A stretch of 42,444 nt of DNA from an uncultured Verrucomicrobiales bacterium (GTDB lineage Bacteria; Verrucomicrobiota; Verrucomicrobiia; Verrucomicrobiales; Akkermansiaceae), in contig CALBVY010000022.1 in assembly GCA_937969495.1 (NCBI GenBank), positions 1 through 42,444 of the forward strand, read 5' to 3'. The position numbers were made by a program, and so were the translations under genes. The notes under the pieces are model-generated. The model searched no databases. It saw only the letters and a program-made list of their open reading frames with translations, and was not told the origin of the DNA. Within the stretch, counting starts at the first letter, position 1. Every line of letters begins with the position of its first letter. Of the stretch, positions 22,143 through 26,185 are shown in pieces.

Positions 22143-23144
22143 TTACCATTCAATGGCAGCTGCGGCCCACGTAAGGCCAGCTCCGAAGGCAACCATGATA
22201 ATATTATCACCACGCTTGAATTTACCTTCACGATGAGCCTCATCTAAGGCGATTGCGATCGCCGCCGCTGAGGTATTACCGTATTTGTGGAGGTTAACAA
22301 AAACTTTTTCGTTAGGGATAGCGAGGCGATCTGAGATGGCATCGATAATGCGTAAGTTCGCCTGATGCGGCACGACTAGAGTGATATCATCTGGTGTAAG
22401 TCCAGCGCGCTCGATGACTTTTTCTGAAGCTTGGCGCATAGCTGTCACTGCCAGTTTAAAGACCTCACGGCCCTGCATGGCGAGGGTGGCTAGATTGTCT
22501 GTGGCATTGGCCATGGTGATGGGGCAGGCTGAGCCTCCGCCTTTGATGTCGAGAAGCCCTGCGTGACGACCGTCTGAGCCAGTTTCTGAGGCTAAGATAC
22601 GCCCTTCTCCTGGCTCTGATTTTCGTAACACAGCGGCTCCAGCGCCGTCACCGAAAAGTACGCAGGTGTTTCTATCTTTCCAGTTGATAAATGAGGAGAG
22701 CTTCTCTGCGCCGATGATAAGAGCATTTTGATAAGCACCATCAGAAATGAGACGTTTAGCCAGCTTCATGGCATAGAGAAAGCCAGAGCAAGCAGCGGAA
22801 ATATCAAAAGCAACCGCAGAAGAGGCTCCGAGATTGGCTTGCACGTAACATGCGGTAGAGGGTGTTAGGGTGTCTGGTGTGATGGTAGCTACAATGATGA
22901 GGTCGACCTCTTTTGCGGTGATTCCCGCTTGTTCCAAGGCGCGTTCTGCTGCTTTGGTAGCCATGTGTGAGGTGAATTCGCCCTCGGCAGCGATACGGCG
23001 TTCCTTGATGCCTGTGCGGCTAAAGATCCATTCGTCACTGGTATCGACGATTTTTTCTAGATCCGTATTGGTGAGGATTTTTTCCGGAACGTAGCTACCG
23101 GTACCGGAAATGGTGACAGGGGTGACAGAAGTGGATTCGTTCAT
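22143..23144 (-). CDS. fabH: beta-ketoacyl-ACP synthase III
   Basis: A 333-residue KAS III that condenses acetyl-CoA (or another short acyl-CoA) with malonyl-ACP to start fatty-acid synthesis. The triad is visible: C119 (ISAACSG), H260 (VVPHQAN) and N290 (KYGNTSAA). The fold signatures DEWIFSRTGIKERR and GDGAGAAVL are also present. It is the last gene of the minus-strand group selD-yceD-rpmF-plsX-fabH, the order known from E. coli and many other bacteria, and lies 72 bases after the plsX stop. The acyl-carrier substrate AcpP is encoded nearby at 27306 but in a separate unit. Confidence 0.96.
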   Translation of the reverse strand: MNESTSVTPVTISGTGSYVPEKILTNTDLEKIVDTSDEWIFSRTGIKERRIAAEGEFTSHMATKAAERALEQAGITAKEVDLIIVATITPDTLTPSTACYVQANLGASSAVAFDISAACSGFLYAMKLAKRLISDGAYQNALIIGAEKLSSFINWKDRNTCVLFGDGAGAAVLRKSEPGEGRILASETGSDGRHAGLLDIKGGGSACPITMANATDNLATLAMQGREVFKLAVTAMRQASEKVIERAGLTPDDITLVVPHQANLRIIDAISDRLAIPNEKVFVNLHKYGNTSAAAIAIALDEAHREGKFKRGDNIIMVAFGAGLTWAAAAIEW

Positions 23145-23216
23145 AAAAATAGTTCGCGTAATTTGCTGGCGAAAACTTAGCCATGATTAAACGGATGAAC
23201 AAGCCTATCGATCAGT

Positions 23217-24275
23217 CTATTTTACAGGAAGGCATTCTTGAGGGTCTTCTCCTGAAGGTCGATTGACTTGAGCTAGTTCATGCTCAATGTGTGGATTGAC
23301 TTTCATGCTGACTGTTTCACGTGCTACACGGAGGGCGTTCTGGATGGCTAAAGCCGATGAAGAACCGTGACCGATGATACAGACGCCATTGACGCCAAGA
23401 AGGGGAGAGCCGCCTACATATTCATAGCTGCTTTTCTTTTTGACTGCTTTGAAGGCTCCTTTGGCCATAGAGGCTCCAAGGATACGAAAGGCGCTTCGTT
23501 TAAATTCTAGCTTCAGCCATTTTGACATTGCCTTGGCGGTGGCTTCACAGCTTTTTAAGATGATATTACCAGTGAAACCATCACAGAGCACAACATCGAG
23601 CTTGGTTTCAAAAAGATCGTGTCCCTCGACGTTACCAACAAATTCAAAGGGTGCCCGCCCTGTGGACTGGAGGTGCTTGAGGAGAGCGAAGGTTTCTTTG
23701 GTAAATGTGGTACCTTTTTCGTCTTCTTCGCCATTGGACATCAGCCCCACACGCGGACGCTCAACACCTAACACGGTTTTGGCATAGATAGCTCCCATAA
23801 CCGCATAGGTAATCAGGTGGCTAGGTTTTGCCTCAGGGTTAGCGCCGGCGTCTAGGATTTGGCAAATGCCGTGTTCATTGGGGATTGCGGAGGCGATCCC
23901 TGCGCGGTCGACACCTTTGAGGGTGCGAAGCTTGACGGTGGCAGCGGCTACAGCAGCTCCGGTGTTACCAGCGCTTACAACAGCATTTGCATCACCAGAT
24001 TTAACAAGGTCTGTAGCAATGGAAATAGAGGATTTTTTCTTTTTCCGGAGAGTCTTTGCCCCTGATTCTTCCATACCCACAACTTCTGGCGCGTGAATGA
24101 TGACCGCGCGTGAGTCCGTAAGTTTGCACTCCGCCATTTCCTTTTCCAGCAGAGCGGCATCACCTACTAAAAATAGGCGATCGATATCTGGATAGAGCTT
24201 AAGCGCATTGCGAGCGCCCATGACAGTTACTTTGGGGGCGTGATCGCCACCCATGGCATCGAGTGCGATTTTCAT
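23217..24275 (-). CDS. plsX: phosphate acyltransferase PlsX
   Basis: About 352 residues. PlsX converts acyl-ACP to acyl-phosphate for phosphatidic-acid synthesis, acting at the membrane surface. The N-terminal MKIALDAMGGDHAPKVTV block is diagnostic, and the SAGNTGA and LDAGANPEAKPSHL segments are also present. I chose the ATG at 24275, where homologues start. The open frame continues to an ATG at 24314, but that lies inside the hairpin at 24296-24321, so it is unlikely to be used. Genes on either side (rpmF, fabH) are the usual partners. Confidence 0.95.
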   Translation of the reverse strand: MKIALDAMGGDHAPKVTVMGARNALKLYPDIDRLFLVGDAALLEKEMAECKLTDSRAVIIHAPEVVGMEESGAKTLRKKKKSSISIATDLVKSGDANAVVSAGNTGAAVAAATVKLRTLKGVDRAGIASAIPNEHGICQILDAGANPEAKPSHLITYAVMGAIYAKTVLGVERPRVGLMSNGEEDEKGTTFTKETFALLKHLQSTGRAPFEFVGNVEGHDLFETKLDVVLCDGFTGNIILKSCEATAKAMSKWLKLEFKRSAFRILGASMAKGAFKAVKKKSSYEYVGGSPLLGVNGVCIIGHGSSSALAIQNALRVARETVSMKVNPHIEHELAQVNRPSGEDPQECLPVK

Positions 24276-24295
24276 GAGAAGTTTAGATATGAAAC

Positions 24296-24321
24296 AAGCG
24301 GAATGCCGTGGCATTCCGCTT
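24296..24321 (-). terminator. long perfect hairpin between rpmF and plsX
   Basis: Inverted repeat aagcggaatgcc / ggcattccgctt with a two-base centre (gt). It lies 34 bases after the rpmF stop. Only a short T-containing run (gttt) follows on the minus strand, so it may attenuate and not fully stop transcription, allowing some reading into plsX-fabH. Confidence 0.6.
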
Positions 24322-24354
24322 TATCGAATTCAAAGCTAGAAGCTTAATGATCCC

Positions 24355-24537
24355 TTAGAGGGCATCTACTTCAAGTACCTGACGCTCGCGGTAAGTGCCG
24401 CATTGGGGGCAGGCAATGTGTGAAGGCACGCGGCTCTCGCACTCAGGGCAAGTCTTGAGCTTGGGGATGCGCCAACGATTTGCGCCGCGACGCATTTTTT
24501 GCTTCATTTTGGATGTTCTACGCTTTGGAACGGCCAT
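24355..24537 (-). CDS. rpmF: 50S ribosomal protein bL32
   Basis: A 60-residue basic protein with the L32 signature MAVPKRRTSKMKQ at the start and a zinc-binding CPEC ... CPQC pair (TCPECESRVPSHIACPQCG). The start ATG lacks a Shine-Dalgarno (ccacataatacc). It is a large-subunit protein sitting between the DUF177 gene and plsX, as in many bacteria, with a hairpin after it that could separate its output from plsX. Confidence 0.97.
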   Translation of the reverse strand: MAVPKRRTSKMKQKMRRGANRWRIPKLKTCPECESRVPSHIACPQCGTYRERQVLEVDAL

Positions 24538-24593
24538 GGTATTATGTGGTTAAGTGTTTGAGGTTGAGTTAGTTGAAATTTTTGATTGGTTGA

Positions 24594-25109
24594 TTAGCTA
24601 TGCTTGTTAGCTGCATCATCAAAGGAATCAAGGGCTGCCCATGGATTGGGTGCTTCGTCGTGGGGAGGGGTCTTTACATCAACCTCTGTAGGTTTGTCCA
24701 CTGCTAAATAGTGGGAATCTAAAATACATTCCTGTTCGGTATCACCTTGATCACAGTGGGGGTAGTCAGGGAATAGGATGACGAGCTCCTCGCGCAGCTC
24801 ATCGGCTAGGTTAAGCTGTGAGTTGGTAATCTCATGGGAGAGTGCGCATTCCTCAATTTGGATAGTTTTAAGGTATTTGCTTAAACAACGCACACAGGTA
24901 AACTCCATAAGCACGGAGATGCTGCCACGGATGAGGAGTTCTTGATCAAAACGCTGTATGTAGAGATCGTAGAATAACGGCTCAGAAGCGCGTGGCTCAT
25001 CGGCTGAAGAGCGTGCCGCATCATCAAAAATTGAGGTGTCAAGCTCGCCGGAGAATGTTTTTCCCTCCTCAGGAAGTGAGTTTAAGTCAATGGTGAGATG
25101 TTTTTTCAC
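24594..25109 (-). CDS. yceD: DUF177/YceD family protein (large ribosomal RNA accumulation protein type)
   Basis: A 171-residue protein starting at GTG (25109). It has the YceD pattern: an N-terminal beta-rich region, then EFTCVRCLSKYLKTI with a CxxC pair, followed by an acidic segment and an ILDSHYLAVD-like end. The E. coli member affects 23S rRNA accumulation, and the gene is nearly always upstream of rpmF, as here. The molecular function is not settled. It begins 14 bases after selD stops, so the two are likely co-transcribed. Confidence 0.85.
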   Translation of the reverse strand: MKKHLTIDLNSLPEEGKTFSGELDTSIFDDAARSSADEPRASEPLFYDLYIQRFDQELLIRGSISVLMEFTCVRCLSKYLKTIQIEECALSHEITNSQLNLADELREELVILFPDYPHCDQGDTEQECILDSHYLAVDKPTEVDVKTPPHDEAPNPWAALDSFDDAANKHS

Positions 25110-25123
25110 AAGGTGATCGAGTT

Positions 25124-26185
25124 TTAAGCTGAAGTGGTGACGTAGACAGATTTCTCACGGCGCTCTGTGGTTTTTCCAATTACGGTAGCACAAGGCGCGG
25201 AGGTTTCTTCAAGAGTTTCCAGCACGGCGTTGAGGTGTTCATCTGGCACGCTGATGAGTAGGCCGCCAGATGTTTGGGCGTCCGCGTAGATGATTTTTTC
25301 ACTGTCGCTGACTTGATCGGAAAAATGTGTGCTTGTCTCTGTGTGGGAGAGGTTTTTCCTGCTGCCTCCTGGCACGCAGCCTGCGGCAATGAGATCGGAG
25401 ACCTCGGGTGACATCAGAGGGAGAAGCGCGGCGTCGATCTCTGCCGATACATGACTGCCATCACAGAGTTCAATGAGGTGTCCGCCAAGACCGAAGCCTG
25501 TGACGTCTGTGCAGCAGTTTGCCAGTCCACGTTCTGCGATAACCGCCCCAGGTTTATTGAGTGTGGCCATCAGCTGGCTGGCTGTCTGTGCTAGTTCGGC
25601 GCTGCATTCACCGCGTTTAATCGCTGTGGAAATAATTCCACTGCCAAGGGGTTTGGTGAGTATGAGGTGTTCACCAGGTTGTGCGTGAGCATTGGCGAGA
25701 TGTCTTTCAGGATGCACGATACCTGTGACGGCTAGTCCGTAGATAGGTTCTGGATTTTTAATGGTATGGCCGCCTAGTAGGCTGCACTCGGCCTCCACGC
25801 ACATTTCTGCACCACCTTGGAAAATACTGCGTATGGTATCGTTATCGATGATGTCTGAGGGCATTCCTGCAATGGCGAGCGCGGTGATGGGGCGTCCTCC
25901 CATGGCGTAGACATCTGAGAGGGCATTGGCCGCTGCGATACGGCCGTAGAGGACAGGGTCATCTACGATGGGGGTGAAGAAATCTGTTGTTTGAACCAGT
26001 GCTAGTTCTTCATTGATTTTAAAAACACCAGCGTCATCGGCAGTGGCTGAGCCGACGAGTAAGCGATCATCTTGGTGCTGAGGTAGTCCACGCAGAACCT
26101 GCGTAAGAGACTCGGGGTCAAGCTTAGAGGCTCATCCAGCACAGGATGCTAGAGAGGTGAGGCGGTGAATATCTTCGCGATTCAT
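25124..26185 (-). CDS. selD: selenide, water dikinase (selenophosphate synthetase), selenoprotein with UGA-encoded Sec
   Basis: About 353 residues, matching the usual SelD length. It makes selenophosphate from selenide and ATP for Sec or selenouridine synthesis. The frame is broken by a TGA at 26134-26132, but the reading is uninterrupted in the same frame on both sides: upstream RLTSLASCAG, downstream ASKLDPESLTQVL. The stop sits exactly where E. coli SelD has Cys17 (GCGCKI), so it most likely encodes selenocysteine. Later blocks are canonical: ADDAGVF, TTDFFTPIVDDP, ANALSDVYAMGGRP and LLGGHTI. The ATG at 26185 puts Sec at residue 18; an in-frame ATG at 26239 would add 18 residues. Neither has a Shine-Dalgarno. 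Confidence 0.92.
26088..26134 (-). promoter_or_regulatory. candidate bacterial SECIS element in selD
   Basis: Downstream of the TGA (26134-26132) there is a perfect hairpin acgcag-gtt-ctgcgt (26104 to 26090), extendable by two T-G pairs to 26106-26088. The apical loop starts with GT, 33 bases after the TGA. The tip gcaggttctgc closely resembles the SelB-binding tip of the E. coli fdhF SECIS (gcaggtctgc). This is the expected arrangement for Sec insertion at the UGA. Confidence 0.75.

Follow-up and report, generated by a model that had tools for sequence, protein, structure and literature searches.

A selD gene with an in-frame UGA and a conserved SECIS-like hairpin in a Verrucomicrobiales bacterium: a very probable selenocysteine-containing selenophosphate synthetase

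Does the TGA that interrupts a selD reading frame in an uncultured Verrucomicrobiales bacterium mark a truncated or defective gene, or does it specify selenocysteine (Sec)? Sec-containing SelD is a classical prokaryotic selenoprotein (PMC13188914, PMC4561486), is listed among those verified experimentally and carries its Sec in a UxxK motif (PMC13188914).

The interrupted selD frame and its relatives

The stretch of DNA analysed here (the window, 42,444 nucleotides) carries on its minus strand a 353-codon frame that runs from an ATG at 26185-26183 to a terminal stop ending at 25124. A first-pass annotation, made from the letters alone, had described this frame as open save for one TGA (26134-26132), had matched the flanking residues SCAG-TGA-ASKL to the catalytic site of SelD and had warned that a stop-only gene finder would report a short protein starting at 25903. 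Direct reading and the mechanical list of open reading frames bore out all of this; the TGA is the sole interruption, with no frameshift and no second stop. The features of the locus are as follows.

25124-26185, minus strand: coding sequence of selD, 353 aa, a single in-frame UGA (TIGR00476, NF002098, Pfam AIRS/AIRS_C)
26132-26134, minus strand: UGA codon, predicted Sec18, at the catalytic position (SCAG-U-ASKL); the same codon in every TGA-type SelD aligned
26123-26125, minus strand: codon of Lys21 in the translated frame, the K of the UxxK motif (motif as in PMC13188914)
25124-25903, minus strand: 259-aa truncated open reading frame in the mechanical list, an artefact of stop-only gene finding

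Read through the TGA, the protein matched the selD family TIGR00476 with 383.2 bits (residues 8-316), compared with a curated cut-off of 125 bits, and matched NF002098 with 374.2 bits, again far over the cut-off; the family matches span residues 6-349. Both AIRS and AIRS_C domains were present, and the UxxK motif was found as U18-A-S-K21. Solved SelD structures matched nearly the full length (residues 4-339). One of them, 2yye/2zod (Selenide, water dikinase), belongs to the same family and aligned with 205 bits over residues 8-339; its solved chain has Cys at the position where the window gene has UGA. No other selD-type match in its genome exceeded the cut-off. The closest named relatives, with 76-80% identity, were found in Akkermansiaceae and Verrucomicrobiales metagenome-assembled genomes (MAGs), and the five named MAGs in this range also have a TGA in their SelD.

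A survey of 142 genomes of the order detected SelD in 41, comprising 32 with one TGA, four with a stop-free gene and five in which the match lies in a longer frame. In an alignment of 31 TGA-type sequences of the window SelD subtype (26 from the order and the five named MAGs), the TGA was at exactly codon 18 in all 31, and its position was also identical in two more distant SelD (L049 and L050). Two of the four stop-free genes were read (L043 and L045), and both have TGC at the codon of the UGA. The UGA is thus aligned with Cys or UGA codons of homologues, as is looked for in a bacterial selenoprotein gene. Across the order, the first 94 codons show conservation at the protein level straight through the TGA, with 54-80% identity over the whole match.

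An extra TAA in the SelD of one genome (G133) was considered as an additional interruption and rejected, as it is the ordinary C-terminal stop. The five longer frames (in G023, G043, G099, G102 and G131) are stop-free, span approximately 750-800 aa and may be fusions. All five of these genomes have selB, and no other SelD match was found in them.

The SECIS-like hairpin downstream of the UGA

A stem-loop resembling a bacterial Sec insertion sequence (SECIS) lies just 3' of the UGA.

26088-26106, minus strand: SECIS-like stem-loop, two U-G pairs added to a core of six pairs (26104-26090), supported by covariation
26096-26098, minus strand: apical loop GUU; G37 and U38 are the same in all 30 sequences compared

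The core reads ACGCAG-GUU-CUGCGU and the two U-G pairs extend it to 26106-26088. The distance of 33 bases given for the hairpin at first pass holds for the interval from the UGA to the apical loop, while the six-pair stem begins only 27 bases after the UGA. The bSECIS model calls for a loop of 3-9 nt with a G in the first two positions, a stem of 4-16 bp, a spacing of 16-37 nt and a minimum free energy at or below -7.5 kcal/mol (PMC13188914). With its GUU loop, stem of 6-8 bp and spacing of 33 nt the window hairpin falls within these bounds, and its energy does so only when both U-G pairs are counted (-8.6 to -8.8 kcal/mol, against -6.3 for the six-pair core alone).

In single-sequence folding the stability of the region was not above that of shuffled sequences (z -0.03 to -0.67), and a cross-species comparison was therefore needed. 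For the window selD alone, the chance of all six pairs forming under synonymous recoding was 1.6%. Over the 31 TGA-type sequences a mean of 5.87 of the six pairs was present, compared with 3.71 after synonymous recoding (maximum 4.29 in 2000 trials), and conservation of the protein alone therefore does not account for the stem. The stem was present in all relatives of the window SelD subtype, and RNAalifold recovered it unprompted. Among the 30 distinct sequences, five pairs of the stem had changed on both sides. Pair 31-45 was found as A-U, G-C, G-U, U-A or U-G, pair 32-44 as C-G or U-A (with a C-A mismatch in four close relatives), pair 33-43 as G-C or A-U, and pair 36-40 as G-C, A-U or G-U. 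In the same 30 sequences 97.1% of cells were paired, compared with 89.3% in shuffles and 26-59% with slid partners. Cells changed on both sides numbered 25 against 6.1 in shuffles, with none of 500 shuffles reaching 25, in controls that ignore the relatedness of the sequences.

Neither of the two Cys-type orthologues with TGC (L043 and L045) has an intact stem. In the two distant TGA-type SelD (L049 and L050, approximately 40% identity) the window stem is absent at the same place, and their SECIS must therefore be different or shifted.

The likeness to the SECIS of Escherichia coli fdhF noted at first pass stands for the sequence of the tip (GCAGGU-CUGC in fdhF and GCAGGU-U-CUGC in the window, each with a GU loop). 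It does not extend to the spacing, as the fdhF loop is approximately 18 nt after the UGA, 15 closer than the 33 in the window. The fdhF gene is also unrelated, and the window hairpin, in contrast to that of fdhF, has a loop of three bases and a stem of six uninterrupted pairs.

Selenocysteine machinery and other in-frame TGA genes

The genome that contains the window is a draft of 2,467,859 bases in 98 contigs, is 96.26% complete and is a relative of Akkermansiaceae MAGs. The first-pass annotation had predicted selA, selB, selC and further selenoproteins elsewhere in it, and had named absence of the three machinery genes as evidence against its reading. All three were looked for and found: selA in C16 (500.8 bits), selB in C53 (308.4 bits) and tRNA-Sec at C17:4244-4334 (57.6 bits, above the Rfam cut-off), which ARAGORN called independently as tRNA-SeC with anticodon TCA (UCA). 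The set expected alongside a bacterial selenoprotein gene is thus present. A tRNA 2-selenouridine synthase gene (selU, G000:C76:7940-8857, minus strand, L060, 346.9 bits) is also encoded, indicating a second use for selenophosphate in the organism.

Across the order, selB was found in 28 of the 32 genomes with a TGA-type SelD, in each of the five long-form genomes and in one of the four with a stop-free gene. Overall, 34 of the 41 genomes with any SelD have selB, compared with one of the 101 without (Fisher p ~1e-24). No selB was detected at the threshold used in four TGA-SelD genomes (G105, G125, G136 and G139), three of which are only 79-85% complete.

Selenoproteins were sought in the window genome via four families (TIGR01591, TIGR00476, PF00578 and PF00085), and the resulting list is a lower bound. 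The PF00578 and PF00085 searches yielded two further in-frame TGAs, each in place of the first Cys codon in a CxxC motif, in line with the first-pass prediction.

G000:C13:80260-80826, minus strand: thioredoxin-like protein (L079), FYSDT-U-GPC, in-frame TGA, lipoprotein-type signal
G000:C38:2494-3222, plus strand: TlpA-like redoxin (L075/L117), YWGTK-U-PPC, in-frame TGA; its C-terminal part gives a weak SHD1-like match

A separate hairpin, CAUCUG-GUU-CAGAUG, is present in the redoxin gene, where the loop follows the UGA at a distance of 30 bases. Many genomes of the order that have selB encode homologues in which this codon is likewise TGA, and an identical or similar hairpin accompanies most of them; in homologues where the codon is TGC or TGT, the hairpin sequence is missing. 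TGA-containing homologues of the thioredoxin-like gene in two other genomes (G133 and G092) share a common hairpin with a CGUGUU or CGUGAU loop; the copy in the window genome can form the stem only if one bulge and one mismatch are allowed. Two independent UxxC genes with an in-frame TGA strengthen the case that UGA is read as Sec here. Sec-type formate dehydrogenase was not found in the genome; four places matched, with no TGA and none over the family cut-off.

Weighing the explanations and a proposed mechanism

The locus is almost certainly a functional selD encoding a Sec-containing selenophosphate synthetase, with Sec insertion and catalysis themselves inferred. One might suspect that the TGA was originally a TGT or TGC, altered by mutation or by a misread base, and that the gene is truncated or defective, given that the window is a single contig of a 98-contig draft assembly and that UGC or UGU differs from UGA by a single base. 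This is contradicted because independent genomes carry the same TGA, namely 31 others of the order and the five named MAGs. The 353 codons without another stop or frameshift and the hairpin maintained with compensatory changes are also against it, and both a pseudogene and a sequencing error can, for practical purposes, be dismissed. An ATG-started frame does exist at 25903, from which a real restart would give the 259-aa protein lacking the catalytic N-terminal segment. SelD requires the N-terminal Cys/Sec and Lys, and this requirement, with the preservation of the 94 N-terminal codons as protein through the TGA, makes a restart extremely improbable.

The UGA could instead be decoded without Sec, by near-cognate read-through or as a reassigned codon, and read-through of this kind has been proposed for the UGA-containing SPS1 of some insects (PMC4561486). 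The genome, however, has tRNA-Sec(UCA), selA and selB, the TGAs of the interrupted genes found sit at redox-active positions, and TGA-free homologues of the same families have Cys at the site with one exception, a Ser. Decoding without Sec therefore has a negligible probability, and UGA is very probably a Sec codon in the window genome and in many of its relatives in the order.

By analogy with established bacterial Sec biology, SelB-GTP with Sec-tRNA-Sec would bind the hairpin just 3' of the UGA and insert Sec at residue 18 of SelD. The enzyme would then convert selenide and ATP to selenophosphate, to be used by SelA for Sec-tRNA synthesis, including that for SelD itself, and by the tRNA 2-selenouridine synthase.

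The chemistry and mechanism of Sec-SelD are already known. As Sec-SelD has long been recognized as a selenoprotein, this is a correct but ordinary annotation, and it puts right a gene that standard gene finding would cut short. Compared with Sec-containing SelD/SPS2 (TIGR00476), the window SelD is alike in its UxxK motif, its full domain match and its UGA with a SECIS just downstream; nothing essential differs, and the host belongs to a Verrucomicrobiota lineage. The searched literature on Verrucomicrobia and Akkermansia selenoproteins holds no dedicated description of this gene or lineage, for which there is now a SECIS alignment that is well supported and includes Cys-type counterexamples. 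A speculative and rather doubtful extension is that the order may have a lineage-specific SECIS (a long spacing, 23-33 nt, and a GUU or CGUGUU loop, in selD and redoxin genes) with a co-adapted SelB, and a small selenoproteome of SelD and exported thioredoxin-fold proteins with no Sec formate dehydrogenase.

In the window itself, an Rfam scan returned tRNA-Met alone. Downstream of selD on the minus strand (22143-25109) are a 171-aa open reading frame, whose match to YceD falls below the threshold, and the genes plsX and fabH.
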